Source: Gammaproteobacteria bacterium
Lineage (GTDB): Bacteria; Pseudomonadota; Gammaproteobacteria; SZUA-140
Length of the DNA stretch: 58,085 nucleotides
Direction: 5' to 3'
Assembly (NCBI GenBank): GCA_015491865.1
Contig: WFVD01000030.1
Coordinates: forward strand, 1-58,085
How positions within the stretch are numbered: the stretch's first letter is position 1; every line of letters starts with the position of its first letter. Of this stretch, positions 1-22,934 are shown piece after piece. Position numbers and translations under genes: made by a program. The notes beneath the pieces were generated by a model that was not told the DNA's origin, did not search any database, and was given only the letters and a program-made list of their open reading frames with translations.

Positions 1-2
1 GT

Positions 3-6000: not shown

Positions 6001-9000
6001 ATCCAGTTATGGACACCTTTAACACGTTGCAGAAAACGACCGATGTTGAGCAGGACTCGATTGAAATTATCGGCAAGCTTGGCGCTGACCAGTTTGATAT
6101 CAGCTCAATCACTAAATCCGACCCTGAGACGGGACTCAATGTCGATGCGGTACGCGTAACCCAGGCATCAGGTGTCACTTTTGAGATCAGGGAGGTCAGT
6201 GATCAGAACGACATCATTACCGTTGATGGTGCAGCTGGAGATGATGAGATTGATGCAAGTGGACTGGTAAAAGATCTGATCGGTGAGCTACGTCTGATTG
6301 GAAATGAAGGTGATGACCGGCTGATCGGTTCTATGTTTTCCGAGACCATTATTGGTGGTGCAGGAAGTGACCGTATCACCGGCGGTCTGGGTGAGGATCT
6401 TTTTGTCTCAGATCAATACAGTGATATTGCGCGTGAATATCGCAATGGGAAACTGATAATCGATACATTAGTAGAACAGCGCGATGCCGATTTTGATCTG
6501 TCAAATTCAGAAGTCACAATTGGTAGTGAGGTTGAGTCTTTAAATAGTGTTTTTGAAAGTGTCGAGTTTACGGGTGGAGAGCGCGCCAATAATTTTGTGC
6601 TGGAAGACTGGAGCGGCAATGGCCTGATCGATGGTGGTGATGGCAGTGATCTTTATCGAGTCGTATTAACGCAGTCAGCAGAGGGCGCTAACTACATCAA
6701 CGTCAATGATACTGGCACCGATGGTCGTGATGTGCTCGATTACTGGGGCAGTGCAGAGATGGATCTGATTCAGATGGATACCGTCTATCAGCAGACTCAG
6801 GATCCTGATCGACAGTTTAGTAATGACCGCTGGCTGGGCTATGGTAGCTTTGGTGACGGTCTGCTGATTGCTCACTTTGGTGCCGCGCTGGCCGGTTATG
6901 GCAAGAAGGATCTTGATGATACCGATGCCCTGTTCGAAGTGGGTGTTTCAAGTCTGCTCGCCAGTGAGAGCTTTCAGGTGCTCAATTACTCTACTGTCGA
7001 AGATGTTACGGTGCGTGGTGGAGAAGGTGATGATGTCTTCATCAGTGATGACACTGCAGCCAGCCTTAATGTTTATGGCAATGAAGGTGATGATCAGTTT
7101 TACATTGGTTCCATCCTTGAAGTTGAAGAGGTGCTGGTTGAGGGGCAGGAGATTACCGTTGCGATTGAGATCACGCAGGGTACCTCTTTTGAGATGAATT
7201 TTTATGGTGGTGAAGGTGATGACTACTTTGAGGTTAACCACAATGCCGCTGATATCAACCTTTATGGCGATAACGGTGATGATACCTTCTTTATCAAAGC
7301 GCTACTGACACTGGATGAAGATGGAAAAACAGTTGACCTTGTGGGCAAAGAGGCTAATGTCAATGCAGGGAAAGAGGTTGCTGATGAGACGGACACCCGT
7401 GAAGTCGATATCGATTCACTTGTCTATGTTGAAAATGCCAATGTAAATATTGATGGTGGTGCCGGGTTTGACTCAGTAGCGGTTGTCGGTACTGTCTTAA
7501 GCGACACCTTTTATGTCTGGTCTGAAGAAAATGCTGAGGGCGATATTATTCAGCGCATATTTGGTGCTGGTATCAAACTCAATCAGTTAGTAAATATTGA
7601 ACGACTGATGTTGCTGACGGGCGGCGGTGATGATCGCGTCTTTATTAACGGAGTTGATCTGGGGCCGAATGCTGACATGATGATCAACCTTGGTGCAGGC
7701 AGTGATGAAGTGCGGGTAGGCGGGGATGAGGTTGCATTTAAAGTTAACTATCCCACACAGAATAGTATTGAGTTTGCCACGCTGACTGGCTATGACAAAG
7801 GGACTGGCTATCTCTCCTGGGGGCGAACAGTTTTTGATATCACGACATCTGAGCTGATCGTACCCTTTACGATTCGGACCCCGGCACAGAGTGAGGATAA
7901 AACGCTACCTGAGTCGAAAGCGATCAACGCGATTCAATCACCATTAACCATTATTGGTGGGCTGGGCGAAATTGACCGGCTAATCATCAACAACCAGGGT
8001 GGTGCACAGGATGTCATCATTAGCGACACTGTTTTGCTGAAGAAACAGATAGAAACAGATGATACTCGGATAGTATTGCCAGCAACCGCTGCCCGGGTTG
8101 AAGTCCCACGTGTTGATGAAGGTGGCAATCCTGTTCTTGATAACAGCAGCGTTCAAATTGTTGATGTATTCACTGACCTGCTCAATCAGGAGAAAGCGAG
8201 TGATGCCGCAGTTAAGCAGATGGCGGCTGATTTTCTGCGGAATCAGATTCTGTTTCAGGATAAGTATATCGAGACAGACCTGGTTGATCAGCTACAAAAT
8301 ATGAGTGGCGATGAGAGGCGACAGGTTGAACTTCCTGTCGGTATCAGTTACGCGGTTTTCCAGGATACCCTGGTTGAAGAAGAGAGTGCCGATACTCTGC
8401 CACAGCAGCTTGAAGCGTTCCTCAGTGGTAGCGGTTACTCTGCCGATTTTGAAGTGACCACGGTAGGTAGCAACACTTTTTATACCCTGGCAAAAGATGG
8501 GATTAGTAACGCCTCCGGTGAACTGATAAGTTTTAGCGCAGTTGTCGAAACAGTCACGATTGATGGTGTTGATTATCAGAACATAACGCAGATTAAATTA
8601 ACACTTGATGGGGAAGAGTCTCTCTTCAAAGATAGTGTCAAGGTGCTAAAAACAGCGCGAAGCCTGCTAGCTGAATTTCTCGATGGCACCGGTTTTAGCG
8701 CCGTTTATGAAGAGTATGATGTGCCTGGCTCAACAGAAACGTTCGCCCAGTTAATTCGTATCGAGAATAGTGATGGTGATCTATTGGAGTTTGAGAGCCA
8801 GAATAAAACCATTGTGGTCGATGGGGTTGAACGGCGAGACATGATCGGCGTCAGCCTGATTACCGCCTCAAAATCGCTGTTTGAGGTGAGAGCCGGTTAC
8901 ATTGAAAGTGTGAGCGTAGTCGATAGCGATCGTTTAAATACGGTTGCATTTCAGGGAGTGCCGGCCAGTATCTTCTTTGATGGTTTTGATGAGTTTAATC

Positions 9001-12000
9001 TCAGTTTGAACGCTACCGCTGAGAATACCCTGTTACTGGATAACAACTTTTTTGAAGGCGTTACCACCGTGACTGGTGGTGAGCAGCGTGATCAATTTAC
9101 GGTGCTTGGCAGTATCGGCAAGAGCCTGCTGTATGGTCAGGAAGGTGATGATCAATACAGTATCGGTGATGGTATGATCGATTCGATTTCTGCGGAGCTG
9201 TTTTTACTGGGTGGGGCTGGTGATGATTCAGTTGTTGTTAACAGTGAAGCACTTGCTGCCGATGCGAACGTCGCACTCGATAAAAATTATCTTGAACGCC
9301 AGTTTGAACAGGTGAAACTAAACAAGATTAGTAGTCTGCTGGGTTTTGGTGGTGATGATAATGTTGAAATTTCCACTACAGAAAATGAGTTGATTGTTGC
9401 AAAGCTGAAACAGCAGACAGAAGCGTATATCACGCTGCTTGGAAACGCAGGGAGCAACAATGCTGGCTTTGAACAGTTTGAACTGGTGGCTGCCCTTACG
9501 GGCAAGCGCTACGCGCCGGAACTGCAGGCACTATTTGACAGTGCGCAACAGATTTTTGATGATAAGGTTGCCGTGCTTGTCAGCGATTCGGAGAGTGCTT
9601 ATCTCGCCAGCCTTGAACAGATGATTGATGAGTATGAGGTGTTGACGATACGTGAGTCTACACTTCAGTCGGTCGAAAACTATCGCCTGATGATAGAGGC
9701 GCTGGATGATGATCGGATTGCTGCTCAGAATGCACTGCAATCTCGTCTGAATGATTTGAATGATAGCTTGCTGGCAGAATATGGCGCTGCGGGTTATACC
9801 GATGCTGATCGGGACGCCTTCGAAGAGCTGTTGGCTGGCTATGCTGCGGGTACCACAGACCTTTCGGGGTTGCTGGCCGATGGTGGGCTACTTGATAATC
9901 TACGACAGAGTACAATAGATAGCTTTAATGTTGAGTTAACTACTCTGGCTGAGGCGTATCGATCAGCCGTAGTCGCTGTGGATACACTGCTGGCTACCTA
10001 TGCAGATGTGGGGGCTGACTTTGATACTATTATTGCAACGCTTGAAGCCGATCTTACCGAACAACAGACGGCAGAGCAGGGGCTGAATGCTCAGGTAGAT
10101 TCTCTGTTGAATGACCGCTCTGCCTTTGATACACAGCTATCACTCTATCTGGAAAATAGCGATGGTTCTGTGACAGCGGCTTCGCTGATTAGCTTTGTAC
10201 AGGAGGCGTTGAATGCAGAACAGGCTGCATTTGAAGCGACGTTAACGGAACTCGCCGAAACATATAAAAACGCAGATAGTGCCTCACGCCCGGCGGCATT
10301 AGCGGCGATCGATGTCCACCTGGCAACATTAGGAAATCCACTTTCAACTGATGCCAGGGGAGTTTTTGATGGTCAGTTAGCGGCTTATCTCGCCGATACT
10401 GATGGCTCAGTAACGGTCGACTCACTGCTGAATGCAGACATTCAGGCTGCGCTGGCAGCAGATAAACTGGATTTCGAAAATGAACTAACCACACAGGCCT
10501 CAGCGTATAAAGCAGCCAATGATGTTGTTACTGCACTGGTTGATAAATATGGCACTACAGGTGTAACAACATTGCGGAATATTATTGATACCCTTGAACT
10601 GGAACGTGCCACGCTTGAACTTGCCTCCACTACTGCTGAAGCTGAATTGAGAGAGCGCATGGATGAGATCTTCGGTGAGCCCTACGCAGTAGCCACTGGT
10701 ACATCATTTGATACCGCTATGCCGAGCTTTATTGATGGTTCTATGGCAGTGAGTCTTTTGCTCGACACATTGAATGATGCTTATGAGGCGCAGGCGGTTA
10801 CCTATGAAACAGAGCTGGTTCCGATGCTGGAGGCTTATAAAGCAGAAGCTGATGAGATTTCACGCTTAACGCTGTGGCTTGCAAAGGATGGTTTATCGCT
10901 TGCCGCTGCCGAGTCTGATCTTGTCGATGCTGAAGCTGAAACGGATGTTGATAGCGCCCTGGTTGCACACCTTGAAGCGGTGATCGCCCACAAAGCAGCA
11001 CAGATGGCGGGAGGGGCGCGGATGGATAGTGTGGTGACCCCGGCAGTTGCAGCAGCCAGATTAGACCTGAACCAGTACATTAGTGAGCAGCTTCCGAGCG
11101 CCAGTTCTACTGCAGTAGATGCGGCAATCGCTACGGGTGATGAACGGTCAACCGATCAGCTTTATCAGGATCTACTAGCGGCGTTGGATACTGAGCTTAA
11201 CGAAGCGTTCGGCAGTGGCATATCAGATGAACGTCAGAACTTTGAGAATGGTGTGTTCGGGCTGGTGAGCGCTTTTAAACAGGCTCGTGAAGCAGAGCTG
11301 GCATTAATGGAAGAGCTGGCCGCCTATACAGATAGTAGCGCCGCTGTAACTGCGCTACTTCAGTCTGTGAGGAGTGCCGTTGCTGCTATCGCTGATACTC
11401 TTTCGAATAGTCAGGGGCTTGATGTCGATGATTATCTGGCTGTCGCAGATACGACAACGTTACGTGACTATTTAGGCGGGCGTGCTCTGGGCGATTCAAG
11501 CAGCACTGTTAATGGCCTGGCTCAGCCTGTTAAAGAGCGCCTGTCTGCGATCATCACAGCGATTGAAGCGCTTAGTGATGATCTGTTTGATCGTAATGAG
11601 ATTGCGGCGCTGGATACAGCCATCGAGGCGTTTGTCGACGAGGTTAATGCCATTAACGAAGGGGTGAGTGCCGAGGGTGACCTGCTCAAAACCGTAGCAT
11701 CAGGGCTGATGCCTGCTTTAGATATAGCCAATATTCAGACTCAGCTAAGCAATATTCAGAGTGTACTGGACTATCAAACAGATAACCCCGCACTGTTCAA
11801 TGTTGCAGCTGCATTTGCTAGCGATGATGTTAGCTTTGCTGATGCACAGGCACTGTTTAAAGACAGCGGTACTAAATCAGAACTGATTACCCTGATAAAG
11901 GCTTATCGCGATGTGGAAAAGCTGGCCGACGCCTATGGTATCTCCCGCTTTCAGGAGCTATCACCCTTCAACGACACATTACAGGCATTAGAACGGCTGG

Positions 12001-14960
12001 GTGTTTATGCCAGCTATCTGCCTGAAACAGGTCTGCTTGACGTGGAAGGGCTCTTTACCAGCTACGAAGCTAATCTCAGCAATTATGCAGAGATCGCAAA
12101 TGCCCCGGAACGAGTGGATAATATAAAAATAAAAGCAGAAGCCGAGGCCAGGTTGGCATCGCTTGAAAAAGACAGGCGAGTTGTTGATCAGGTTGTTGCT
12201 GACAATGGAGAGGCCGACACATACCGCTATACCATCTTCCAGTGGTGGGGGGGGTGGGTTAATAACTTTTATGAAACCCGCTTCTTCCAGGACCCCGCCC
12301 AGGTCGCGAAGATCAATAACGCGAAGGCGGCTCAGACGGAGCTGGCAAGCACCATTGCCGCATTGAACACGGACCTTGCTGTGGCCAACGCGGCATTGAG
12401 TGACACTGATGCGGTGCTGGCAGATCTTGATGAAAAGCTCGCTGCTCAGTTCCTGATGGTTAAGGTGATGAGTCCCGTTGTGCTTGAGGTCTTCTCCGAT
12501 ACTCGCTCGGGCAGTGACCTGAAAGCGTTGCTGGATAAAGATAGCAGTTTGATTGCAACCGTCAGGTCATACAGCAATGAATATTCAGTGGTCACGGAAG
12601 CGGGTGATGATGTTGTCAACGATCCTGTTTTTAGTGATGCCAACTTTAGCACGGTCACCAGCACTGTTAGCTCGCTGGATTACACGGCACTGCTCTCACT
12701 AACGGGGTTAAACAATGCGGGTATCTATGCTGATTATGAGCAGATTGAATCTTTTACCCTGAACCTTGGTGATGGCAACGACACTGTTATTATCAGCGAT
12801 AGCCTGGGGCAGCGTGATAGTCGCATGCAGATCAACAGCGCTGCTGGCGATGATACTATTCGGATTGGTAATGAACTCGATACGGTTGATGATGTACTGG
12901 GTAACCTCTTTATCGATGCCGGCGAGGGTGAAAATGCGTTGACGGTTGAAGATTCAGGCGACGTGACTGGCGACACGATCACTCAGCAGTATGCCGATGA
13001 TGACTACCTGCAGCTAAGCGGCATGAGTGACGGTGAGATATTCTATCAATCATCGGGTGGTTTCAGTAAGGGGCTGTCGATAACAAGCTCTTCAGGTGGT
13101 GATGTCATTACCATTGATGCGCTGCATGCTGATGACCTTACCGAGCTGTTCTCAGTGGCGGGTGATGATGAAATATATGTAAACGATTTCGACCTGAACC
13201 CTGCTGCAACATTAACCATCTACGCGGGTGACGGTGCTGATCTGGTGGATGGAACCGCAGCACCACTTGCACTAACGATCCTGGGCGAGAATGGTGAGGA
13301 TACTCTCTGGGGCAGTCAGCTGGGCGACCTGATAAGTGGTGGCGATGGCCGTGACTATATCTGGGGGCTGAGCGGAAATGACACCATCTGGGGTGATGTT
13401 ATTGGCGGTTCATTAGCAAACGGCAGCGATATTATCTTTGGAAATGGTGGCGATGATGAGATCTATGGCCAGGGGGGCAATGATGCGCTCTTTGGTGATG
13501 ATGGTGTTGCCACCTTCGATGCCGCGGGATACCTGGTCGATATCAGAAGCAGTGGGCTGGCTCAGGGTGGCAACGATCTGCTAAGCGGTGGCGGTGGTAA
13601 TGACATCCTGGTTGGTGGTATTGGTGATGATGCATTGAGTGGTGGCGCAGGTAATGATTTCCTGTTCGGCAGTAACGCCTTTGTCACGTTAAACCCTGTC
13701 TGGATGGTTACACAGGGTGGTGACCTCGAGACCGATGTGAGCAGCGGAAATAACAGCGAGTCATCTGCTATTGCGGCTGGCATCTCTTTTGTAGGCAGCG
13801 CGCACTCTACTATTGCTGCACCTCGCCTGGAACAGAGTGATAACGACACCTTACGTGGCAGTGATGGTGATGATGTGCTGATGGGTGGCGCTGGTTCCGA
13901 TCGCCTGTATGGCGGTGGTGGTCGTGATGACATGATTGGTGATAGTGGCCTGGTCACATATGAACGTGAACTCAATCGTTCGACCTATGAGACACGCAAC
14001 TTCTTTATCGGCGGTGACGACTACCTGGATGCGGGTAGTGGAAACGACAAGCTATTTGGTGGCTTTGGCCGTGATACGTTAGTCGGTTCGCTTTCTGACG
14101 ATCTCCTGGTCGGGGATAATGGGCGCCTGATTATGGAAAATGGTTTTGTAAAATCACTGGTTCGTCTTGGGCAGGGGGAGCTGAGCCTCACTATGTCAAC
14201 CATGTCTGCACTGTTAAACAGTAACGATGTTCGCATCAAGGAGATACTTGGCGAGATTGAGCAGAACCAGGAGATGCTTGCCGGGCGAACTGTGGGCATT
14301 AATAATGCGGAGAAACATTCATCCGAGAATAGTCTGGCGGGCAAACCGTTCCAGCTTGCCAGTATTAGTACAGTTAATAGTGCAGGCACCCAGATAGTTA
14401 ATCAGCTCCTGGAAGAGCATACGGTTGTTTATGGAGAGACATTAACGACGATCGCGGAAGATTACCTCGGTGATGCCGCACGCTGGAAAGAGATTCAGGC
14501 ACTGAACCCTGAGATTAAGGATCCTGATAGAATTCCTGAAGGGATGACCATCAAACTACCGCCGATAGATGCAGAGCCCGTAGATGTAGAGCCCGCGTTG
14601 ATAACGGCACCTCCCGTTGCACAACTTGATAAGCAGCCGCTACTTACTCACACTCTACTCGGCGGAATTGTTCCGGTTGTAAGTGGTGCTGGACAGAGCT
14701 ACGCAGGGTTGAGTTATGCCGATGCGGTTGCAGCAAATGAAGCGGATGGCGAAACAGAGATTGATGAGGTATTGCTGGGTGTCGCGGCGGTAACAGCCGC
14801 CGGGCTGGGACGTGCCCAGTTAAACTGGCGGGTACTACAGAGTCGTAAAGAACTGATGACCGATGAGGTCGGCAGTGTTAATGCCGCTGGTTTCAATCGC
14901 CTGAAAAATGAATATGAAGGAAAACAGTATCTACGGTGGGATCAAGGCTCTCTGGGTTGA
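3..14960 (+). CDS. Giant RTX/pentapeptide/LysM repeat protein (5' end outside window)
   Basis: Very large predicted secreted or surface protein. The frame is open from base 3, so the true start lies upstream; the TTG at 78 is only a formal start, used here for residue numbering (4,960 residues). Residues 1-205 are pentapeptide repeats (FSGVDLRGFDFSGFDFSGTN type). EF-hand-like loops occur near 395 (DDGRITLGEL) and 745 (NSDGKITLSEL). RTX nonapeptides (GGSGNDEIFGQGGDDLL type) fill about 1667-1858 and 4402-4685, with degenerate GG/DD-rich repeats between about 2300 and 3050. Residues 3135-4135 are predicted helical, with a recurring unit. A LysM domain lies at 4781-4829 (HTVVYGETLTTIAEDYLGD), and a short hydrophobic stretch near 4895-4910. 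RTX repeats bind calcium outside the cell; LysM binds peptidoglycan or chitin-like glycans. The downstream HlyD/M50/SecA genes are its likely export partners (inference). Adhesin, matrix or surface-layer roles are possible; no catalytic domain was recognised. Confidence 0.9.
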   Translation, partial: SSGDGASTTGGLDLAALGALDFTSGLSLAGYDLRGFDLSALSDLGSLDFRGLDLSGVNFSGTNLTTLTGLTDSYLRGVDFSGVNFNGVGFNFSGLNLAGAKFSGATLINGLFGSGDSGNGINLRAVDLGGIDFAGLEFDFSRFDLSGATFANALNISELSFGSNRSGNSSGSILTGVNFSGVDLRGFDFSGFDFSGTNFSGASLAGVNFSDAILNGVDFSGVDLSVVVSLAGSFYDAATSLSLPEFNFGDVGAGSEVVLEPLDWLTDEPGVLFSGGFEDNVLKFSLDINQAFNESVAFNLSAADLLDTTGDSGFDLTATGNALIQGGFAFGFEAGLDLNNAIGELESRASAGVGGDFNAIINGDDFLREDDLYFTLDPLQAGFYASVSDLDVALALGIGEVSVSNSDFAIEAVATIEVADPGVDDGRITLGELSDYRNGGGTVTELVSVGLESGMAGNFVMDARASLFGETVNLDQLGRFIATVTDNDLLDGELPGFAFDVELAAELQTIILDFLRSVSDFSDGVIDDINAIDLPLIDGGFGELLAMVVGDVKNPLDFYSPVNDYFAQFSSGDSTANNNAGGSAPTIRGLLEVIMATVSGGAGNALGFVIEGSTIEFALELDRRVEFSEALALNLDQFAGDAAGLFDIFNIESSGNVAITPAATFGLGFGIDFGSTTPSLYIDPEAGLEQAEIDAGIRNDGLRMSLELLADDLDLEASLDLDAMLTDLANALGITDTSFLKNLTPGMFIENGVASLDTGIALVLQEKSNSNSDGKITLSELELAPVEITGEGIDIALPLFFPTPATALGGEGHHQLTLSADITTSGLASFDVNAPAIDSTVFLRTLWENPELIVEALDMVLRNINDSINDQVMAIKLPLIGDLSSMAGFIDDIRTSVLAPLQAELEKDGGDRSVGEIIADALGAAFGLLGLDGLEVTTEENFEDDNRYVVFNIAISDKLISQSLALDFDVGMPGLGLDIDGDINLDFGYNFGFGFGFDFAAADFFIDTTGNELELFLDAYLDKNAAGENFSANGSLTFLEVEVADVDDWDADWQERWRSEEGVDKPSGLYGGFIVDLKDTGNGVGGVVNDRLTTAEMRASSFSEMLEANLEVEADVDLFAEVRVPGIDLGALGFGDVMLELPAISTTLRYSQIFSGSDFGASGSSTELGGTPEFTFEAVTVDAGEFISEFVAPILDPIITIIEPIKPLLDMLSQEIGFLKQLDSPFTSLRDMVALILGEQAVAPIDALTSLSDIIDLATGFADSGVIDFGNFDIAVDSSGNATPAQSTATSPGSSSPESNASTKARIDDFASNGSFELSLIQDPFNAVKLLLGQTADIFRYTLPALDIEMDFGRSIPVFPGLNARIGGQVDLVSDFTFGFDTRGFNAFRNDDWQDPLLLFNGFYMDDNVINGVDNPELMLGATLSAGASLGIGGLVEAGVEGGIRGDVDFDFNDDIQDGKFYADEMLKRIGQGVECLFDIEGAVSAFLDAFIWAGVDLGLFGEVTLYEYRKSFVNEVLANFTFHCPEPATPDIAAFDSTTGALALRYDGASAGDAQNYTIEYVEGPLDLGSLYDYAASSTEKSDRSDTDKVLWKDKNGRNLTSDGSVNGTPLSNQIVIKSRGVIEVYDAASITSITAVGTDGADSYKIRGDVIEYSSITTINIDARGGDDTINLGGNNEGTGGQLTSSVLNGGAGNDVIRGSDAADTILGGSGNDEIFGQGGDDLLYAVNQSVTLNNETNDPLARNYDRLVGGAGADRLYGGDGADQLIGDFDEALPANELMSGNDTLYGGRGNDYLFGGAGLDELFGEDGKDLLSGGSGDDLLEGGGQDDLLEGNAGDDMMRGGEGNDYFAGGVGDDILYGDLGADIFEWYLGEGSDAIFGVSDGLSNVGDSPDRVRLFSFTRDDAGNLNDAVADDVIRVSANGTDVALDWNGNLFNFNSIGNLDIDSGRGADTFVFEDLSATTLMNVNLAVGSEQRFVEQERQARDSNGVLAFDSDGNPVMDTFNTLQKTTDVEQDSIEIIGKLGADQFDISSITKSDPETGLNVDAVRVTQASGVTFEIREVSDQNDIITVDGAAGDDEIDASGLVKDLIGELRLIGNEGDDRLIGSMFSETIIGGAGSDRITGGLGEDLFVSDQYSDIAREYRNGKLIIDTLVEQRDADFDLSNSEVTIGSEVESLNSVFESVEFTGGERANNFVLEDWSGNGLIDGGDGSDLYRVVLTQSAEGANYINVNDTGTDGRDVLDYWGSAEMDLIQMDTVYQQTQDPDRQFSNDRWLGYGSFGDGLLIAHFGAALAGYGKKDLDDTDALFEVGVSSLLASESFQVLNYSTVEDVTVRGGEGDDVFISDDTAASLNVYGNEGDDQFYIGSILEVEEVLVEGQEITVAIEITQGTSFEMNFYGGEGDDYFEVNHNAADINLYGDNGDDTFFIKALLTLDEDGKTVDLVGKEANVNAGKEVADETDTREVDIDSLVYVENANVNIDGGAGFDSVAVVGTVLSDTFYVWSEENAEGDIIQRIFGAGIKLNQLVNIERLMLLTGGGDDRVFINGVDLGPNADMMINLGAGSDEVRVGGDEVAFKVNYPTQNSIEFATLTGYDKGTGYLSWGRTVFDITTSELIVPFTIRTPAQSEDKTLPESKAINAIQSPLTIIGGLGEIDRLIINNQGGAQDVIISDTVLLKKQIETDDTRIVLPATAARVEVPRVDEGGNPVLDNSSVQIVDVFTDLLNQEKASDAAVKQMAADFLRNQILFQDKYIETDLVDQLQNMSGDERRQVELPVGISYAVFQDTLVEEESADTLPQQLEAFLSGSGYSADFEVTTVGSNTFYTLAKDGISNASGELISFSAVVETVTIDGVDYQNITQIKLTLDGEESLFKDSVKVLKTARSLLAEFLDGTGFSAVYEEYDVPGSTETFAQLIRIENSDGDLLEFESQNKTIVVDGVERRDMIGVSLITASKSLFEVRAGYIESVSVVDSDRLNTVAFQGVPASIFFDGFDEFNLSLNATAENTLLLDNNFFEGVTTVTGGEQRDQFTVLGSIGKSLLYGQEGDDQYSIGDGMIDSISAELFLLGGAGDDSVVVNSEALAADANVALDKNYLERQFEQVKLNKISSLLGFGGDDNVEISTTENELIVAKLKQQTEAYITLLGNAGSNNAGFEQFELVAALTGKRYAPELQALFDSAQQIFDDKVAVLVSDSESAYLASLEQMIDEYEVLTIRESTLQSVENYRLMIEALDDDRIAAQNALQSRLNDLNDSLLAEYGAAGYTDADRDAFEELLAGYAAGTTDLSGLLADGGLLDNLRQSTIDSFNVELTTLAEAYRSAVVAVDTLLATYADVGADFDTIIATLEADLTEQQTAEQGLNAQVDSLLNDRSAFDTQLSLYLENSDGSVTAASLISFVQEALNAEQAAFEATLTELAETYKNADSASRPAALAAIDVHLATLGNPLSTDARGVFDGQLAAYLADTDGSVTVDSLLNADIQAALAADKLDFENELTTQASAYKAANDVVTALVDKYGTTGVTTLRNIIDTLELERATLELASTTAEAELRERMDEIFGEPYAVATGTSFDTAMPSFIDGSMAVSLLLDTLNDAYEAQAVTYETELVPMLEAYKAEADEISRLTLWLAKDGLSLAAAESDLVDAEAETDVDSALVAHLEAVIAHKAAQMAGGARMDSVVTPAVAAARLDLNQYISEQLPSASSTAVDAAIATGDERSTDQLYQDLLAALDTELNEAFGSGISDERQNFENGVFGLVSAFKQAREAELALMEELAAYTDSSAAVTALLQSVRSAVAAIADTLSNSQGLDVDDYLAVADTTTLRDYLGGRALGDSSSTVNGLAQPVKERLSAIITAIEALSDDLFDRNEIAALDTAIEAFVDEVNAINEGVSAEGDLLKTVASGLMPALDIANIQTQLSNIQSVLDYQTDNPALFNVAAAFASDDVSFADAQALFKDSGTKSELITLIKAYRDVEKLADAYGISRFQELSPFNDTLQALERLGVYASYLPETGLLDVEGLFTSYEANLSNYAEIANAPERVDNIKIKAEAEARLASLEKDRRVVDQVVADNGEADTYRYTIFQWWGGWVNNFYETRFFQDPAQVAKINNAKAAQTELASTIAALNTDLAVANAALSDTDAVLADLDEKLAAQFLMVKVMSPVVLEVFSDTRSGSDLKALLDKDSSLIATVRSYSNEYSVVTEAGDDVVNDPVFSDANFSTVTSTVSSLDYTALLSLTGLNNAGIYADYEQIESFTLNLGDGNDTVIISDSLGQRDSRMQINSAAGDDTIRIGNELDTVDDVLGNLFIDAGEGENALTVEDSGDVTGDTITQQYADDDYLQLSGMSDGEIFYQSSGGFSKGLSITSSSGGDVITIDALHADDLTELFSVAGDDEIYVNDFDLNPAATLTIYAGDGADLVDGTAAPLALTILGENGEDTLWGSQLGDLISGGDGRDYIWGLSGNDTIWGDVIGGSLANGSDIIFGNGGDDEIYGQGGNDALFGDDGVATFDAAGYLVDIRSSGLAQGGNDLLSGGGGNDILVGGIGDDALSGGAGNDFLFGSNAFVTLNPVWMVTQGGDLETDVSSGNNSESSAIAAGISFVGSAHSTIAAPRLEQSDNDTLRGSDGDDVLMGGAGSDRLYGGGGRDDMIGDSGLVTYERELNRSTYETRNFFIGGDDYLDAGSGNDKLFGGFGRDTLVGSLSDDLLVGDNGRLIMENGFVKSLVRLGQGELSLTMSTMSALLNSNDVRIKEILGEIEQNQEMLAGRTVGINNAEKHSSENSLAGKPFQLASISTVNSAGTQIVNQLLEEHTVVYGETLTTIAEDYLGDAARWKEIQALNPEIKDPDRIPEGMTIKLPPIDAEPVDVEPALITAPPVAQLDKQPLLTHTLLGGIVPVVSGAGQSYAGLSYADAVAANEADGETEIDEVLLGVAAVTAAGLGRAQLNWRVLQSRKELMTDEVGSVNAAGFNRLKNEYEGKQYLRWDQGSLG

Positions 14961-15084
14961 TGCCGATAGGGCAGGGATGAAAGCTGATGATGATTTATGG
15001 GTGAAACAGTTGAATATTTTGAGCGCGAACGGGATCTATTTTAAAGATAACAACCAACAGAAAGAGGAAGTTTTGAATGGCTGA
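14908..15084 (+). CDS. Small ORF overlapping the giant gene in +1 frame
   Basis: A 58-codon open frame in +1 relative to the giant gene. It overlaps the giant gene's last 53 bases and the first 8 bases of the DUF3467 gene (ATGGCTGA overlap). The product begins MNMKENSIYGG, is mixed charged and hydrophobic, and has no family I recognise. ATGs at 14908 and 14914 have no clear ribosome-binding site; an internal ATG at 14977 follows GATAGGG at five-base spacing and would give 35 residues. It may be a real small protein translated by coupling, the displaced true C-terminus of the giant protein (indel or frameshift), or chance. The tight overlap at both ends favours one of the first two. Confidence 0.4.
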   Translation: MNMKENSIYGGIKALWVDADRAGMKADDDLWVKQLNILSANGIYFKDNNQQKEEVLNG

Positions 15085-15397
15085 TAAAGATAAAGTGCAA
15101 GCGACTAAAGGTTTACCCAGGATTCGCTGGGATGATTCAAAAATGCGCAGTACCTATGCAAACGTCTGTAATGTCTCTAGCACCCGAGAAGAGGTGACAC
15201 TTCTGTTTGGCACAAATCAGGCGTGGCATACTGGCCAGCCGGAGGTCTCTGTTGAGTTGAGTGATCGCATTATCATGAGTCCATTTGCAGCCAAACGTCT
15301 TTTGCAGCTGTTGACCAATGTTGTGGGTGAGTATGAAAACCGTTTTGGCGTGATGGAGACACCGAAAGGTGCCCAGACGCCTGAAGCTGTTAAATAG
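15077..15397 (+). CDS. DUF3467 family protein
   Basis: A 106-residue soluble protein. The central part (YANVCNVSSTREEVTLLFGT, then VELSDRIIMSPFAAKRL and a final VVGEYENRFG) matches my memory of the DUF3467 family, small bacterial proteins of unknown function. The start ATG follows GAGGAAG at 15063-15069 with seven-base spacing, a strong ribosome-binding site, and overlaps the end of the preceding small ORF. There is no signal peptide or membrane segment, so it should be cytoplasmic. Its place between the giant repeat protein and the export-type genes suggests a helper role such as chaperone or regulator, but this is inference from position only. Confidence 0.85.
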   Translation: MADKDKVQATKGLPRIRWDDSKMRSTYANVCNVSSTREEVTLLFGTNQAWHTGQPEVSVELSDRIIMSPFAAKRLLQLLTNVVGEYENRFGVMETPKGAQTPEAVK

Positions 15398-15457: not shown

Positions 15458-15511
15458 GTCGCCTGCTGCTGATCACACAGCTAACATTACATAACGAATT
15501 TCCCCGTTTTG

Positions 15512-17356
15512 ATGAGTAAACAATCCCCCGGAGATGGCCCAGCATTAGAGATTGACCCTGCTCTGTGGCAGCGCTTTGCTGCGGCAAAAACAGATGGCGA
15601 ATACTATCAGGCGTGGTTGCGCCTGCAATCTGTTTTTATTGGTGATGTAGAGCAGTCACTGCTAGTGCTGCGGGAGGGAGATGAAGGTCGTTTTGTTCCC
15701 ATCGCTTACTGGCCAGAAGATGCCCCCAATATTGAGCGGCTAAGTAACATTATTGAGCGGGCGATTAAAGAGAGATGTGGGCTGGTGGCCCCTCATGAGG
15801 GGTTGGGTAGTTCATATCTAGTCGCTTTCCCAGTGATCGTTGAAGACAGAGTACAGGCGGTTGTTGCGATGGTGCTGGCGGCACGATCCAGCCTTGAACT
15901 ACAGATGTCGATGGGCCGTTTACAGTGGGGTAGTGGCTGGCTTGAGTTACTGCACCAGCGGCATGGCAAGCGGGATGTGGAGGCGACGCAGCACCGCCTG
16001 GCTGCGGCGACTGAACTACTGGCGAGCGTGCTCTCTGAAAAACAGAGTGCAAGTGCGGTGATGAAGTGCGTGACCGAACTTGCCACACTACTCTCATGCG
16101 ATCGCGTAAGTATCGGCTTCCTGCACCGTCACTATATGAAGGTGATGGCGCTATCGCACAGTGCCGAGTTTGGCAAAAAGATGAATCTGATCCGTTGTAT
16201 TGGCAATGCGATGGATGAAGCGATGGATCAACGTCATGAGGTTGTCTACCCTGTGCCGGACTATCGCGAAAGCCTTTTAACGCGCGCCCATGAAACGCTC
16301 TCACGTCAACATGGTGCCGGTAACATTCTTACCATTCCACTCTATCAGGAAGGGGAATGTTACGCCGCAGTCACGTTAGAACGCCCTCATGAGATGCCGT
16401 TTAGTGAGCAAGAGGTACATTACTGCCGAAGCGTGTGTTCGCTGGTTGGACCCGCGCTGGAAGAGAAGCGCCTGAATGACCGCTGGCTACCACGCAAGAT
16501 CCTGGATGCCGCCTGGCAACAGCTGGCGCGCCTCTTCGGCCCCTATTACCTTGCTCGTAAACTGGTGCTGTTAACGATCATTACCATCGTCGTCTTTTTT
16601 AGTCTCTATAAAGGTGAATATCACCTCTCATCAGATGCTGTACTGGAGAGCTATATTCAACGCATGGTAACGGCACCCAGCACTGGCTATATTGAGAGCA
16701 CCTATGTGCGCGCTGGTGACCTGATAGAAAAGGGTGAGCTGCTCGCCACCCTGGATGATAAAGATCTGCGACTTGAGCGGATGAAATGGTTAAGCCAGCG
16801 TAGTCAGTTGAAGAAGCAGTACCAGGAGGCGCGCGCCACACGCGATCGTGCCGGGATGAATGTGATCAGGGCGCAGATCGAACAGGCCGATGCTCAGATC
16901 AACCTGGTCGAACAGAAGCTAAAACGTAGCCGCATCACTGCACCATTTAATGGACTGGTGGTGAGTGGTGACCTCAGTCAGATGCTCGGTGGTGCCGTGC
17001 AGCAGGGCGACATGCTGTTTGAACTGGCCCCACTCAACGCCTATCGTCTCATCATTTACGTTGATGAGCGTCGTATCGGTGACGTGGTCGAAAACCAGCG
17101 CGGTGTGCTGGTGCTATCTTCTCTGCCGAATGAGCGCTACCCCTTTGAGGTTAACAAGATCACACCTGTTTCGACTGTGCGTGATGGTGGTAACTTCTTT
17201 CGTGTCGAGGCGAAGCTGGATGAGATCTCTGATCGGCTTCGCCCCGGCATGGAGGGGATCGGGAAAATTTATATTGATGAGCGCCTGCTAATCTCAATCT
17301 GGACGCGCAACCTGGTTGAATGGTGGCGACTCACATCATGGGAATGGTTTTCTTAG
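15512..17356 (+). CDS. GAF domain-membrane-HlyD adaptor fusion protein
   Basis: A 614-residue protein starting at ATG 15512 (a TTG three bases earlier is less likely). The cytoplasmic N-terminal half carries a GAF-like sensor domain at about residues 180-315 (SCDRVSIGFLHRHYMKVMAL ... NILTIPLYQEGECYAAVTLE) preceded by a possible degenerate second one. A single transmembrane helix follows at about 349-368. The C-terminal part is an HlyD/RND periplasmic adaptor: biotinyl-lipoyl-like half motifs (APSTGYIESTYVRAGDLIEK, ITAPFNGLVVSGDLSQMLGG) flank a coiled-coil hairpin, then a beta-barrel segment. Adaptors link an inner-membrane pump to the cell exterior; the GAF module would let a cytoplasmic ligand or state gate it (inference). 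It is the first gene of a tight operon, nine bases before the M50 gene. Confidence 0.85.
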   Translation: MSKQSPGDGPALEIDPALWQRFAAAKTDGEYYQAWLRLQSVFIGDVEQSLLVLREGDEGRFVPIAYWPEDAPNIERLSNIIERAIKERCGLVAPHEGLGSSYLVAFPVIVEDRVQAVVAMVLAARSSLELQMSMGRLQWGSGWLELLHQRHGKRDVEATQHRLAAATELLASVLSEKQSASAVMKCVTELATLLSCDRVSIGFLHRHYMKVMALSHSAEFGKKMNLIRCIGNAMDEAMDQRHEVVYPVPDYRESLLTRAHETLSRQHGAGNILTIPLYQEGECYAAVTLERPHEMPFSEQEVHYCRSVCSLVGPALEEKRLNDRWLPRKILDAAWQQLARLFGPYYLARKLVLLTIITIVVFFSLYKGEYHLSSDAVLESYIQRMVTAPSTGYIESTYVRAGDLIEKGELLATLDDKDLRLERMKWLSQRSQLKKQYQEARATRDRAGMNVIRAQIEQADAQINLVEQKLKRSRITAPFNGLVVSGDLSQMLGGAVQQGDMLFELAPLNAYRLIIYVDERRIGDVVENQRGVLVLSSLPNERYPFEVNKITPVSTVRDGGNFFRVEAKLDEISDRLRPGMEGIGKIYIDERLLISIWTRNLVEWWRLTSWEWFS

Positions 17357-17365
17357 GCAGCCGGG

Positions 17366-19507
17366 ATGAGTGAGTCACTCTTTAGTCAGTCATGGTATCG
17401 GGTCAGCGGGCTGAAGGTACGCCTGCGCAGTCATGCACGTATCCTGCGTCACACCTACCGGAACCAGGTGTGGTTTGTATTGCAGGACCATGCAAGCGGC
17501 AAGTTTCATCGCCTGACACCTGAGGCCTGCTCGATCATCAGTCTGATGGATGGCAAGCGCACTTTGCAGCAGGTATGGGAATCAGCCTGCCGGCAGCTGG
17601 GTGATGATATGCCAACACAGGATGAGATGATCTCTCTGCTCGGGCGACTACACCGTGCCGATGTGCTGCAGGCCGACCTGTTGCCAGATATTGGTGATCT
17701 GCATGAGCGTCAACGCACTGGACGCCGGAAAAAGATCCTGCAACAGTTTAAATCTCCCCTTGGTATTCGCATTCCACTGCTCGACCCGGAACGCTTTCTG
17801 CAATGGAGCTATCCATTTGTCAGCCCTTTTCTCGGCTGGTTTGGTGCGGCGGTCTGGCTCTCAGTGGTGGTGACTGCATCCATGCTGGCAGCCATACACT
17901 GGGAGTCGCTAACTTCGAACGTTGCAGATCGCCTGCTGGCCGCTGATAACCTGATTCTGCTGATACTAGTCTATCCACTGGTAAAACTGCTGCATGAGCT
18001 GGGACACGCCTATGCGGTGAAGCGCTGGGAGGGAGAGGTACATGAGATGGGGGTGATGCTTCTGGTCTTTATGCCAGTCCCCTATGTTGAGGCTTCGGCG
18101 GCATCTGCCTATCGCAACAAATATCAGCGCGTGTTTGTCAGTGCTGCCGGGATTCTCTCAGAGGTTTTTATTGCTGGCCTTGCAATGATTCTCTGGGTTT
18201 ATACAGAACCGGGGGTGATGCGTGCCGTGCTTTTTAATGTGATGCTGGTCGCCGGTGTCTCAACGGTACTCTTTAATGGCAATCCATTACTCCGTTTTGA
18301 TGCCTATTATATGCTGGGCGATCTGCTTGAGATACCCAACCTGGGGACGCGAGGTAACCAGTATATTGCTTATCTGGCAAAGCGCTACCTGTTACGTATA
18401 AAGGATGCTATCTCACCTGTGACTGCAGCGGGTGAGGCTGGCTGGCTGGGTGGTTACGCCATCATCTCATTTTTCTATCGAATGTTTATCATGGTGGTGA
18501 TCATCATGTTTGTCGCGACTCAGTTTTTTGTCGTGGGTGTTGTGCTGGCCATCTGGGCCTTTATCAACACACTGGTTATGCCACTGTGGAAGGTTATCTC
18601 CAGTTTTTTTACCGACAGCCAACTACAGGCGCAGCGTGGACGCGCCTCGGTGCTGGCGCTGGTCTCATTATCAATCATCTTGCTGATTATCTTTGTGCTG
18701 CCGATGCCGTTAACAACTCGAGTTGAGGGGGTGAGCTGGGCTCCGGAGCAGTCGCAGATACGGGTAGGCGTGAACGGTTTTGTGGAAACAGTGGTCGCTA
18801 CTCCCGAGCAGAAGGTCATGCGTGGTGAACCACTTTTTATTACCACCAACCCAGAGGTCGATGCACAGGTAGCCATCGCTCAGGCCGAATTGAATGAGGC
18901 GCGCGCACGTTATAAAGCAAATGTAGGGGCCCGCGCTGAGCAGGCAGTGATTCGTGAAGAGATCAAACAGTTTGAAGAAGAGCTACGTCATGAAAAAGAG
19001 CGCAGGGCGGCACTCAATATCCAGAGCGATCGTGACGGTACCTTTATCGTCAGTGAGGCGCACAACCTGCCGGGACGTTATGTGACGCGAGGTGAAACGC
19101 TTGGATATGTGATCGACAGCGAGCAGATGCCAGTGCGCGCAGTCGTGTCGCAGGACTTTATTGATCTGTTAAGAAATCGGACACTCTCTGTGGAGGTGCG
19201 TTTTTCCTCTGATATTGCACAGGCCTATCCTGCAAAGGTGATTCAGGAGGTGCCGGCGGCAAGTCACCAACTGCCAAGTATGGTGCTCAGTACAGAGGCG
19301 GGGGGGGAGATTGCGGTGGATCCATCGGCAAAAGAGCCGGGTAGCGCCTTCAACAAGATCTTCCAGTTCGAGCTTGAGGTGGCTGGTGTCAATATCACGC
19401 GCATTAATGAGCGTGTCTATGTGCTTTTTCGCCATCCACCAGAACCACTGGCAAAGCGAATCTATCGTTCAGTGCGGCGGCTCCTGCTAAGCCAGTTTGA
19501 TACTTGA
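17366..19507 (+). CDS. PqqD-like / M50 metalloprotease / HlyD fusion membrane protein
   Basis: A 713-residue polytopic protein. Residues about 25-105 resemble a PqqD-type peptide-binding fold (WFVLQDHASGKFHRLTPEAC). The zinc-protease motif HELGH is at residues 210-214, and the distal motif NPLLRFDAYYMLGDLLEIPN supplies Asp312 as the likely third ligand, as in M50 site-2 proteases. Several transmembrane helices surround these. After about residue 465 comes an HlyD-like periplasmic part with a lipoyl-like segment (GVNGFVETVVATPEQKVMRG) and coiled coil. M50 enzymes cut substrates within or at the membrane; PqqD domains bind peptide leaders. This predicts recognition and processing of an exported polypeptide, probably the giant repeat protein (inference). 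The stop overlaps the SecA-like start. Confidence 0.85.
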   Translation: MSESLFSQSWYRVSGLKVRLRSHARILRHTYRNQVWFVLQDHASGKFHRLTPEACSIISLMDGKRTLQQVWESACRQLGDDMPTQDEMISLLGRLHRADVLQADLLPDIGDLHERQRTGRRKKILQQFKSPLGIRIPLLDPERFLQWSYPFVSPFLGWFGAAVWLSVVVTASMLAAIHWESLTSNVADRLLAADNLILLILVYPLVKLLHELGHAYAVKRWEGEVHEMGVMLLVFMPVPYVEASAASAYRNKYQRVFVSAAGILSEVFIAGLAMILWVYTEPGVMRAVLFNVMLVAGVSTVLFNGNPLLRFDAYYMLGDLLEIPNLGTRGNQYIAYLAKRYLLRIKDAISPVTAAGEAGWLGGYAIISFFYRMFIMVVIIMFVATQFFVVGVVLAIWAFINTLVMPLWKVISSFFTDSQLQAQRGRASVLALVSLSIILLIIFVLPMPLTTRVEGVSWAPEQSQIRVGVNGFVETVVATPEQKVMRGEPLFITTNPEVDAQVAIAQAELNEARARYKANVGARAEQAVIREEIKQFEEELRHEKERRAALNIQSDRDGTFIVSEAHNLPGRYVTRGETLGYVIDSEQMPVRAVVSQDFIDLLRNRTLSVEVRFSSDIAQAYPAKVIQEVPAASHQLPSMVLSTEAGGEIAVDPSAKEPGSAFNKIFQFELEVAGVNITRINERVYVLFRHPPEPLAKRIYRSVRRLLLSQFDT

Positions 19508-21507
19508 TGATGGCCCGTTATCCCGACATGCTTCCCGCTTCGCGTATTCTCCATCTGGAACGCTCGGAGCCAAAAATGGGACTGCTTGATAATGCGGCAA
19601 AGGCGTTGATCACACCAATAAAACTGCGCCTGACAGTTTTGCAGCGTCGCCACCTGCGTCAAATGGTACGGGAGATTATTACCCGGCATGCAACATTAAC
19701 CACACTGTCTGACGAATCGTTAAGCGCGCGTGTTAGCGCGCTGCGTTGTGAACTGTTGCAGCAGGGGATGCAGGACCCACTCATTATTGACGCCTTTGCG
19801 TTGATTCGTGAAGCGGCCCAGCGCACGCTCGGCATGGCACATTTCGATTCCCAGCTGCTGGCAGGCCTTGCCATCCTCAGAGGGATGGTGATTGAGATGG
19901 AGACAGGTGAAGGCAAGACCTTGAGCGCAACACTGCCAGCTGCGACGGCTGCGCTCGCGGGCGTACCTGTGCATGTGATCACCGTTAACGATTATCTGGC
20001 CGAGCGTGATGCCTCGATTATGGCGCCCCTCTACCGCTGGCTGGGACTCAGTATCGGCCATATTACACATGACATTGAGCATGGAAAGCGTCCTGAAATT
20101 TATGATTGCGATGTGGTTTACTGCACCAATACAGAGCTGGCATTCGATTACCTAAAAGACCGTATCGTACTCGGCAACGCCGTTCGGCCACTACATCTAC
20201 ACGCTGAAACACTACAGGGAAAGCGTAATCGTAGCCACCAGCTGCTGTTGCGTGGCCTGCATTTTGCCATTGTTGATGAGGCGGATAGTGTGCTGATAGA
20301 CGAGTCGCGAACACCGCTGGTCATCTCAGGTGGTGGTAACAGTGCGGGTAATGGTGAAGAGAAAATGATGCGCCAGGCGCTGGCGTTAGCGCAACAGCTT
20401 AAAAAGGTGTTGCATTTCACAGTTGACAGGGGTGAAGCGAAAATTGAGTTAACAGAGCAGGGTGAACTTGCCGTTGCTGAAATTGCCAGAGACTATGGTG
20501 CTACCTGGAGCAGCCCTGTGCGGCAACTGGAGCTGGCACGACAGGCGCTTTCGGCACTCTATCTTTTTCAGCTCGATAAACATTATCTGATTCGAGATAA
20601 CAAGATTCAGATTATTGATGAGCATACTGGCCGCGTAATGGAAGGGCGCAGCTGGGAGCGAGGGCTGCATCAACTGATCGAAATCAAGGAGGGGTGCGAA
20701 GTGACACGGGCGCGTGAAACTCGTGCGCGTATGAGTTATCAACGCTTTTTTCGTCGTTATCGACACCTGGGTGGTATGACCGGCACAGTCAAAGAGGTCT
20801 CGCATGATCTGTTGTCGGTCTATGCAGTGCCGACAATGGTGGTGCCGTCGCGTCGCGCCTCACGTCGCATCAATCAGGGAACACGTATCTTCGCAACGGC
20901 CGAGGAAAAGTGGCAGGCTGTTTGTGATAGAGTGAAGGCGCTGCATGAGAGTGGCCGGCCGGTATTGATCGGCGTTCATTCGGTGGCAAGCTCAGAATAT
21001 CTGAATAAAAAGTTAAATGAAATCGGTCTGCTTCATCGTGTGCTGAATGCGAAGAACGATAGCGAAGAGGCGGCGATTGTCGCAACGGCGGGTGAGCCTG
21101 GTTGCATCACAATCGCTACCAGCATGGCGGGACGAGGCACCGACATCAAGCTGGCCGATGGCGTTAATGAACTAGGAGGCCTGCATGTGATTCTCACAGA
21201 ACGTTTTGAAGCTGCGCGTATTGATCGTCAGTTGGCAGGGCGCTGCGCGCGCCAGGGTGATGCCGGCAGTTTTGAGGCGCTGCTGTCGATGGACGATTAC
21301 CTGCTTGAGCGCTGGTCAGGGCCGTTAACTGTCTGCGCGCGAAGTAGACTGCTGGCTACCCTCGGCCTACGCCAGCCACTATCACACTGGGCGATGCAGC
21401 GAGCCCAGCAGCAGCAGGAGAAGGTGCACCGAAAGGTGCGCCGCGATGTCTGTAAAATGGATGATAAGATGGGCGAGATACTCGCGTTTTCAGGAGCAAC
21501 AGAATAA
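19507..21507 (+). CDS. Short SecA-like accessory translocase ATPase
   Basis: A 666-residue SecA homologue, against about 900 in housekeeping SecA. Walker A METGEGKT is at residues 131-138, VNDYLAERD follows, the DEAD box lies at 257-260 within DEADSVLIDESRTPLVISG, and the second motor half keeps MAGRGTDIKL and GRCARQGDAG with the arginine finger. The ATPase core therefore looks active. The protein stops just inside the helical scaffold domain; the helical wing and the zinc-binding C-terminus used for SecB and lipid contact are absent. The start is ATG 19507, overlapping the stop of the M50 gene (TGATG); ATG 19510 is also possible. The context points to a dedicated motor for the neighbouring export proteins and not to general secretion (inference). 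Confidence 0.92.
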   Translation: MMARYPDMLPASRILHLERSEPKMGLLDNAAKALITPIKLRLTVLQRRHLRQMVREIITRHATLTTLSDESLSARVSALRCELLQQGMQDPLIIDAFALIREAAQRTLGMAHFDSQLLAGLAILRGMVIEMETGEGKTLSATLPAATAALAGVPVHVITVNDYLAERDASIMAPLYRWLGLSIGHITHDIEHGKRPEIYDCDVVYCTNTELAFDYLKDRIVLGNAVRPLHLHAETLQGKRNRSHQLLLRGLHFAIVDEADSVLIDESRTPLVISGGGNSAGNGEEKMMRQALALAQQLKKVLHFTVDRGEAKIELTEQGELAVAEIARDYGATWSSPVRQLELARQALSALYLFQLDKHYLIRDNKIQIIDEHTGRVMEGRSWERGLHQLIEIKEGCEVTRARETRARMSYQRFFRRYRHLGGMTGTVKEVSHDLLSVYAVPTMVVPSRRASRRINQGTRIFATAEEKWQAVCDRVKALHESGRPVLIGVHSVASSEYLNKKLNEIGLLHRVLNAKNDSEEAAIVATAGEPGCITIATSMAGRGTDIKLADGVNELGGLHVILTERFEAARIDRQLAGRCARQGDAGSFEALLSMDDYLLERWSGPLTVCARSRLLATLGLRQPLSHWAMQRAQQQQEKVHRKVRRDVCKMDDKMGEILAFSGATE

Positions 21508-21509: not shown

Positions 21510-22259
21510 ATGTTTCAAACTCTACGTTGTCAGCATATTATCATTTCTATGAGTGTTGTACTGACGGCAGGTATGGCTCTACCTGCTACTGCTGACAAGC
21601 TATTTGATGAGCGATTTGAATGTTTGATGGAACCCAGTACGGTTGTCAAAGTCAGCAGTGAAACCCCGGGTGTAGTCGATGAGATCATGGTCGAGCGTGG
21701 TGGCTCGGTGGAAAAAGGGGATCTTTTGTTTGCATTGACCACTGGACGTGAACGGGCAGCAGTAGCGCTGGCGCAGGCTCGGCTCGACTTTAGTCAGCGG
21801 AAAGTGGTCCGTAACGAAGAGCTTTATCAGCAGCAGTTGATCTCAATTCATGAAAAAGACGAGATGGCGACGGAGAGTCGGATTGCGGCACTGGAACTGC
21901 AGGAGGCGCAGGAGAACTTAAAAATACGCTCGGTTAAAAGCAAAATTAGTGGTGTGGTTGTAGAGCGTACGGTTGCCGCCGGTGAGTATGTGGGGGTTGA
22001 CCCGATCATCACGGTAGCGACTCTTGATCCCCTGCATGTTGAAGTCGTAGTGCCAGCGGAAGCGTTTGGCACAATCGAGAAAGGGGCGAACGCGCTGCTC
22101 TACCCTTTTGACCCTGTGGGGGGTGAATATAAGGCGAAGGTGGTAGTGGTCGATCGTTTAATCGATGCTGCCAGTGGTACCTTCGGTGTCCGTTTGAGGT
22201 TGCCGAATCCCGGTTATCGCCTGCCAGCGGGTCTCGGTTGTGAAGTGAAGTTTCTTTGA
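21510..22259 (+). CDS. Periplasmic HlyD/RND-type adaptor protein
   Basis: A 249-residue exported protein with a signal peptide (hydrophobic core about residues 10-25, cleavage near ALPATADK). The mature part begins with a lipoyl-like half (VSSETPGVVDEIMVERGGSV), then a short helical hairpin (about 75-130), the second lipoyl half (SKISGVVVERTVAAGEYVGV) and a beta-barrel. This is the layout of a small membrane fusion protein. It lies two bases after the SecA-like gene and is the third HlyD-like module in the operon, with no cognate ABC or RND pump gene nearby. It probably completes a periplasmic conduit with the two membrane-anchored HlyD fusions (inference). Confidence 0.85.
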   Translation: MFQTLRCQHIIISMSVVLTAGMALPATADKLFDERFECLMEPSTVVKVSSETPGVVDEIMVERGGSVEKGDLLFALTTGRERAAVALAQARLDFSQRKVVRNEELYQQQLISIHEKDEMATESRIAALELQEAQENLKIRSVKSKISGVVVERTVAAGEYVGVDPIITVATLDPLHVEVVVPAEAFGTIEKGANALLYPFDPVGGEYKAKVVVVDRLIDAASGTFGVRLRLPNPGYRLPAGLGCEVKFL

Positions 22260-22264
22260 GGTCA

Positions 22265-22702
22265 ATGATGAATAAAATGAGTATGACTGTCGGGGTGGTG
22301 TTACTTGCTTTGATCATGACAGCGCCTCTGCTGGCGAGCGAACGCGCCCCACAGATCATCATTGATGGCTTGCTGGCTTATAAAGCAGATGGCGCAGATA
22401 AGGCAGTTTCGGCTTGGCTAAAGGGCAGCGCACTGTCGAGCAGGAAGACCGCCGCACAGCTGGAGAAGCAGCTGCTACAGGTGGGGCGGACCTGTGGCCA
22501 GTATCGTGGTTACGAGACGGTTCATGTTAACCCTTTTTCAGATAGCGCCCGCTTTGTCTACATGCAGCTTAACTATGGGGCATGCCCACTGTTTGGCCGT
22601 TTTGTGGTCTATAACACGGGACGCGGCTGGGTGCTGACGCAGGTTAATTTCAACGCAAACCCGGAGAAGGTGCTGCCGCAGCGCCTGTTAACCTCCGACT
22701 AG
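22265..22702 (+). CDS. Small exported protein of unknown function
   Basis: About 145 residues from ATG 22265 or 22268 (GAGG at 22258-22261 sits six bases before the second). A signal peptide is visible (MSMTVGVVLLALIMTAPLLA, then SERAPQ). The mature part has a helical start (AYKADGADKAVSAWLKGSAL) and beta-rich ends with GACPLFGRFVVYNTGRGWVL, which recalls NTF2-like folds, but I cannot place it in a named family. Two cysteines may form a disulfide. It starts a few bases after the adaptor gene and ends the operon, so it is likely a periplasmic accessory of the export system (inference). Confidence 0.7.
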   Translation: MMNKMSMTVGVVLLALIMTAPLLASERAPQIIIDGLLAYKADGADKAVSAWLKGSALSSRKTAAQLEKQLLQVGRTCGQYRGYETVHVNPFSDSARFVYMQLNYGACPLFGRFVVYNTGRGWVLTQVNFNANPEKVLPQRLLTSD

Positions 22703-22871: not shown

Positions 22872-22934
22872 TTCTGTGGGTTACTTATCTCTGCTAGCAT
22901 CATTTCTCATAAATATTCTGGATGGGAAAATTTG

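Follow-up and report, generated by a model that had tools for sequence, protein, structure and literature searches.

Gene content of the locus

The window analysed here, that is, the whole stretch of 58,085 nucleotides, is contig WFVD01000030.1 (C30) of a gammaproteobacterial genome of the SZUA-140 lineage (GCA_015491865.1, hereafter G000; 2.54 Mb in 31 contigs). It carries the gene of a shortened SecA paralogue, embedded in a locus with the order TolC, giant RTX protein, DUF3467 protein, GAF-HlyD, M50-HlyD, short SecA and adaptor. The members of this locus that lie in the window are the following.

3..14960, + strand: giant protein, C-terminal 4985 residues, probable cargo; pentapeptide, RTX calcium-binding and LysM repeats
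15077..15397, + strand: DUF3467 protein of 106 residues (Pfam PF11950, 86 bits)
15509..17356, + strand: GAF domain, transmembrane helix and HlyD membrane-fusion protein (GAF-HlyD)
17366..19507, + strand: M50 (site-2 type) metalloprotease-HlyD fusion with a PqqD-like N-terminal domain (M50-HlyD)
19507..21507, + strand: short SecA paralogue, 666 residues from its ATG; the chain ends within the first scaffold helix and closes on the conserved tail L[AS]F[ST]G
21510..22259, + strand: periplasmic adaptor of the HlyD_D23/RND_mfp type (TIGR01730, 117 bits for a cut-off of 94.9)

The likely ATG of the short SecA (position 19507) overlaps the stop codon of the upstream M50-HlyD gene by a single base (TGATG), and the adaptor gene, which is kept in most loci, follows directly 3'. 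The related genome G011 has TolC, a giant of 7839 residues, DUF3467, GAF-HlyD, M50-HlyD, a short SecA of 665 residues and the adaptor on contiguous sequence, and G007 has the same gene set with a giant of 7211 residues. DUF3467 is found at the equivalent position in G011, G007, G014 and many further loci.

A SecA that stops inside its helical scaffold

The open frame of the short SecA spans positions 19504-21507 of the forward strand and would encode 667 residues if a TTG start were used. Pfam recognises in it SecA_DEAD (PF07517, 331 bits, residues 48-436), the preprotein cross-linking domain (PPXD; SecA_PP_bind, PF01043, 91 bits) and the second P-loop domain (P-loop_SecA, PF21090, 170 bits), and the motifs GEGKT, VDEAD, MAGRGTD and GRCARQGD are all present. 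An earlier note, written from the letters of this stretch, had described both motor halves and the arginine-finger motif as intact, and this description holds. Among the short SecAs in general, Walker A, the DEAD box, motifs V and VI and PPXD are all conserved.

After GRCARQGD the protein continues for 81 residues, which by counting takes it to about residue 662 of E. coli SecA, whose helical wing we take to start at residue 672; the stop thus falls within the first scaffold helix, and the earlier note had placed it just inside the helical scaffold. The helical wing, the two-helix finger and the C-terminal linker are absent, not only here but family-wide. Among 89 homologues whose stop falls inside the locus, 88 have a tail of 69 to 83 residues after the last motor motif (median 82), the single outlier having only 22, whereas the corresponding tail of housekeeping SecA measures 305 to 360 residues. 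In the alignment, the short SecAs have an occupancy of 0.00 in the helical-wing and C-linker columns of E. coli SecA. About eight columns of the two-helix finger are filled by short SecAs in the MAFFT alignment, and these residues look like the misplaced C-terminal tail, an alignment artefact. Orthologues at 95, 84 and 50% identity also have about 666 residues, solved SecA structures align with residues 47-658, and L[AST]F[ST] is found within the last 12 residues of 37 of the 42 homologues aligned. Since the homologues share both their end point and a conserved tail of their own, artefact and frameshift are both rejected as the cause of this end; with 88 of 89 stopping at the same point, the possibility that a frameshift conceals the missing domains further downstream is ruled out.

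The genome also has a full-length secA, a frame of 926 residues at G000:C21, to which the short SecA is 40% identical over its residues 49-554; the second copy that the earlier note asked for is therefore there. The short protein was also said to differ from housekeeping SecA and from most SecA2 proteins, and it does so on both counts. From the former it differs by the missing domains, and as to the latter, SecA2 membership is rejected by scores of 534, 509, 430 and 377 bits against cut-offs of 1085, 930, 725 and 1100. Among the NCBIfam models, those of SecA score highest, at 575 to 591 bits, each below its own cut-off. G000 holds one SecY, and no SecY2 was found in it.

RefSeq calls short SecAs 'prepilin peptidase' or 'DEAD/DEAH box helicase' (L244:19923-21947, L233:15986-17947).

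The giant protein and its probable LEPR-XLL leader

At the end of another contig, C18, a TolC-like gene is followed by a frame that starts MLARLKQ...FEPLESRFLLSADA and stays open to the contig end (G000:C18:143595 onward), with a leader, then DUF4347, then pentapeptide repeats. The LEPR-XLL model NF012209, whose curated cut-off is 17 bits, scores 29.7 bits at G000:C18:143694. We infer that this open frame encodes the N-terminus of the giant, with its LEPR-XLL and DUF4347 parts, because G011 has the same gene order on contiguous sequence. The giant gene thus seems to be split between positions 1-14960 of the window and G000:C18:143595-146515, the break falling in the sequence that codes for pentapeptide repeats.

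Leaders of the same kind are found in other giants. The 12,918-residue neighbour in the complete genome of Pseudosulfitobacter sp. DSM 107133 is named 'LEPR-XLL domain-containing protein' in RefSeq, and the N-terminal leader of the Mesorhizobium giant adjoining a short SecA contains FEALEPRLLLSAD; in the Alisedimentitalea giant, the LEPR motif was not found at the annotated start. Those LEPR leaders that are readable in frame consist of a basic stretch and a short apolar run, with a maximal 15-residue hydropathy mostly below 1.7, and by their composition they do not look like a clear Sec signal peptide.

The LEPR motif of the C18 fragment (residues 33-48) weakly matches PF07595 'Planctomycete extracellular' (E = 0.025), which hints that the two tags may be related.

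The M50-HlyD protein

In the M50-HlyD fusion, the protease residues H210, E211 and H214 (HExxH) and D312 are invariant in 57 homologues. In the structure model (predicted local distance difference test, pLDDT, of 86.7), a small N-terminal domain of alpha-beta type is followed by the helices of the membrane part and by an HlyD fold at residues 447-692 (Z = 14.7, root-mean-square deviation 3.4, 218 aligned residues). Its structure matches come from the HlyD half, so that the site-2 protease and PqqD folds are barely probed by them. Judged by hydropathy and by the model, the protein would have about seven membrane helices, a number that would leave the N-terminal domain inside and the HlyD part outside. 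The N-terminal domain scores 18.3 bits (E = 0.003) against PqqD (PF05402), below the gathering score of 23.4, and homologues of M50-HlyD are annotated as members of the PqqD family.

Distribution and association with LEPR-XLL giants

An alignment scan with M50-HlyD detected 237 relatives, and the loci of the best 80 were surveyed (1.2 Mb in total). They come from Pseudomonadota, Desulfobacterota, Nitrospirota, Nitrospinota, Rokubacteria and others. The order GAF-HlyD, M50-HlyD, short SecA is present in almost all loci with enough sequence, mostly with the adaptor on the 3' side and often with DUF3467 on the 5' side, and plasmids of complete isolates bear the same gene set. A single ABC (ATP-binding cassette)-type open reading frame was found in these 80 loci.

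Among 397 genomes of the phylum that are at least 90% complete, NF012209 (LEPR-XLL) was detected in 58, M50-HlyD in 84 (strong and weak groups together) and the short SecA in 30, the three best candidates per genome having been scored for the latter. LEPR-XLL is present in 29 of the 30 genomes with a short SecA, and in 29 of the 367 without (Fisher p = 9e-27, a value that overstates independence because related genomes share ancestry). In the family of the window, short SecA and LEPR-XLL match exactly where the loci are readable, both being present in G000, G007 and G011; in G014, which has the short SecA, the contig is short and interrupts the giant gene.

Comparison with known systems

Secondary SecA_DEAD proteins that lack most or all of the wing-scaffold part have been described in Gram-negative bacteria beside M50, GAF-HlyD, HlyD and sometimes OEP genes (Kamneva, Poudel & Ward 2015, PMC4452313). 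No ABC exporter was found in those loci, and the authors suggested SecA as the ATPase and M50 as the pore; the main text of that article contains nothing on giant, LEPR, RTX or DUF3467 proteins. The locus of the window shares several features with this set: SecA_DEAD is present and wing-scaffold absent or a fragment; the genome is Gram-negative and encodes a full-length SecA besides this second one; M50, GAF-HlyD and HlyD accompany it, an ABC exporter does not, and the proposed role is the same. The present analysis adds the link with a cargo, the shared end point and its L[AS]F[ST]G tail, the PqqD-like domain and the variants that have no SecA. A literature search, thin on subscription journals, did not find a later paper on the secondary SecA_DEAD system. 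The motor and its gene set have therefore been known since 2015, and the link with LEPR-XLL giants is new as far as we could find. A tree with 71 rows places the short SecAs together on one side of a branch with support of 100, apart from the SecA sampled; the tree was made by a quick method, has some long branches and includes neither actinobacterial SecA2 nor the sequences of the 2015 study, but its short-SecA side does include Methylorubrum loci, close to the M. extorquens locus of that study.

Housekeeping SecA shares with the short SecA the first nucleotide-binding domain (NBD1), PPXD, NBD2 and the start of the scaffold helix. Besides the domains that the short protein lacks, it differs in that DEVD is replaced by DEAD in the short form, which has a conserved C-terminal tail of its own. 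The SecA2 of the Gram-positive accessory Sec systems is also a second SecA for special cargo; SecA2 proteins, however, retain far more of the scaffold and function with SecY or SecY2. The laboratory fragment N68 of E. coli SecA, which is devoid of the C-domain, is an unregulated ATPase; the short SecA is likewise without C-domain, but natural, conserved and provided with partners of its own.

Type I secretion (HlyB-HlyD-TolC, and the LapB type for giant adhesins) is the other system with which the locus invites comparison, by its HlyD-type fusion proteins, its TolC-like protein and its giant RTX-type cargo. HlyD-type and TolC-type components are both present in G000, the TolC-like gene by way of the presumed join with C18. 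Unlike type I loci, this one has no ABC exporter of the HlyB, LssB or PrtD type, and the supposed tag is the N-terminal LEPR-XLL leader. The four full-length ABC exporters of G000 resemble SmdA, SmdB, MsbA and an MsbA relative, and none of them reached the type I secretion cut-offs. The type I HlyD model, run against the whole genome at 1e-10, gave nothing, but it also missed the HlyD proteins of the window, and this result was not used.

A dedicated motor for giant proteins?

We favour, with a probability of about 0.55, the reading that the short SecA is the dedicated cytoplasmic ATPase of a type-I-like exporter for LEPR-XLL giants, in which it would replace the ABC exporter. Its co-occurrence with the short SecA makes the giant LEPR-XLL protein the probable cargo, which the short SecA would translocate. 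The reading is further favoured by an operon conserved in about 80 loci, by the single ABC-type frame among them and the failure of the host's ABC exporters to reach type I cut-offs, by the conserved motor and protease residues, by the separate branch of the short SecAs, and by the greater length of the giants that accompany SecA. As to how the leader is recognised, whether M50 is the portal, and the direction and energy of transport, we infer the following scheme, of which the ideas of SecA in the place of the ABC ATPase and of M50 as a pore originate with Kamneva et al. (2015, PMC4452313). The first step would be recognition of the basic, non-hydrophobic leader with LEPR-XLL in the cytoplasm, for which the PqqD-like domain of M50-HlyD is a possible reader. 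Using both motor halves and the preprotein-binding domain, the short SecA would grip the unfolded chain and, by ATP hydrolysis, feed it into a membrane portal containing the M50 part, with its seven or so helices. From there, the fused HlyD domain, GAF-HlyD and the adaptor would span the periplasm up to the TolC-like outer-membrane protein, and the M50 protease may trim the leader. The absence of wing, two-helix finger and C-linker would fit with freedom from the contacts made with SecY and SecB and in autoinhibition. Taken as a whole, an ABC-free, SecA-powered, one-step secretion of LEPR-XLL giants, with the leader read by the PqqD-like domain and possibly cut by the built-in site-2-type protease, and with the wing-less motor serving the longest cargoes, is a tentative proposal, with the odds somewhat against it.

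Several observations weigh against the favoured reading. In this assembly LEPR-XLL lies on another contig and is attached to the locus by a presumed join, exact overlap between the ends of C18 and C30 not having been found. Two genomes, G297 and G184 (L217 and L218), have GAF-HlyD, M50-HlyD, the adaptor and a LEPR giant (in G297 also DUF3467 and TolC) without SecA, and the sampled loci of the weak M50-HlyD group lie beside LEPR or other giants, all without SecA. In G392 (L219:8681-10480), the position of the short SecA is occupied by a degenerate relative of 600 residues without Walker A. Giants have a median length of 9,714 residues with SecA and 3,939 without (per-genome p = 1e-5), but this contrast comes from about two to five independent switches, two of them on well-supported branches, and it loses significance in a paired test on the tree; the idea that the presence of SecA makes the giants longer was rejected after this tree control. 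Finally, DUF3467 gave no match to PDB sequences, and Foldseek, run on a middling model (pLDDT 74.5), returned no solved fold. The short SecA is a regular but not an obligatory part of the locus. As to the partners that the earlier note had proposed for it, the M50 and HlyD fusions, conserved synteny in about 80 loci supports them strongly, and that they act in place of SecYEG is plausible; since loci without SecA exist, M50-HlyD is nevertheless not strictly dependent on SecA.

Three other explanations were considered. The short SecA may act at the ordinary SecYEG, alone or aiding housekeeping SecA, and send the giant to the periplasm, M50-HlyD, GAF-HlyD and TolC intervening only later, in processing and outer-membrane passage. 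SecA is normally bound to SecYEG, its known partner, the genome has its single SecY and no SecY2, the short form keeps the nucleotide-binding and PPXD surfaces through which SecY is contacted, and the loci without SecA could then rely on the housekeeping protein. However, no member of the family has the wing or the two-helix finger that serve at SecY, and the leaders readable in frame do not look like a clear Sec signal peptide; we consider this explanation unlikely, but deserving of some weight. Next to M50/HlyD in G297, G184 and the weak group, no other recognised ATPase was found, and the core machine may therefore be powered otherwise. The short SecA would in that case be no translocation motor but a chaperone, unfoldase or timing factor driven by ATP, which holds very long nascent chains in an unfolded, export-competent state, in keeping with the company of the longest giants. 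Its preprotein clamp and the full set of motor motifs argue against such a role, as does the translational overlap with M50-HlyD, which suggests a stoichiometric partnership, and we regard it as improbable. That the protein is an ordinary SecA degraded or truncated beyond function would account for the missing domains and has a parallel in the decayed copy of the related G392 locus, but it hardly deserves credit in view of a uniform end and conserved tail in about 90 homologues, the catalytic motifs kept, and an operon conserved over several phyla.

If the dedicated-motor reading is right, a widespread wing-less SecA beside a protease-adaptor fusion and a giant would mean that SecA can be adapted to a portal other than its usual one, and would hint at a way in which proteins of 7,000 to 15,000 residues are secreted by bacteria that lack type I exporters. 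The link with LEPR-XLL makes the orphan locus of 2015 a testable export pathway.

Neighbouring genes

DUF3467 was considered as a SecB-like chaperone, and profile comparison with E. coli SecB lent this no support. SapC family proteins are found in or beside the locus in two Rhodobacterales (L244:19109-19930, L241:758-1555). Directly after the adaptor, the window contains a further gene:

22256..22702, + strand: protein of 148 residues whose gene overlaps the adaptor gene; orthologue at the same place in G011

An orthologue in G007 is 26% identical to this protein and lies beside TolC. Positions 22932-25062, which separate the locus from the next conserved gene, hold genes for a Phenol_MetA_deg outer-membrane-type protein, a c-type cytochrome-like protein and a ResA-like thioredoxin, which are not at that place in G011.

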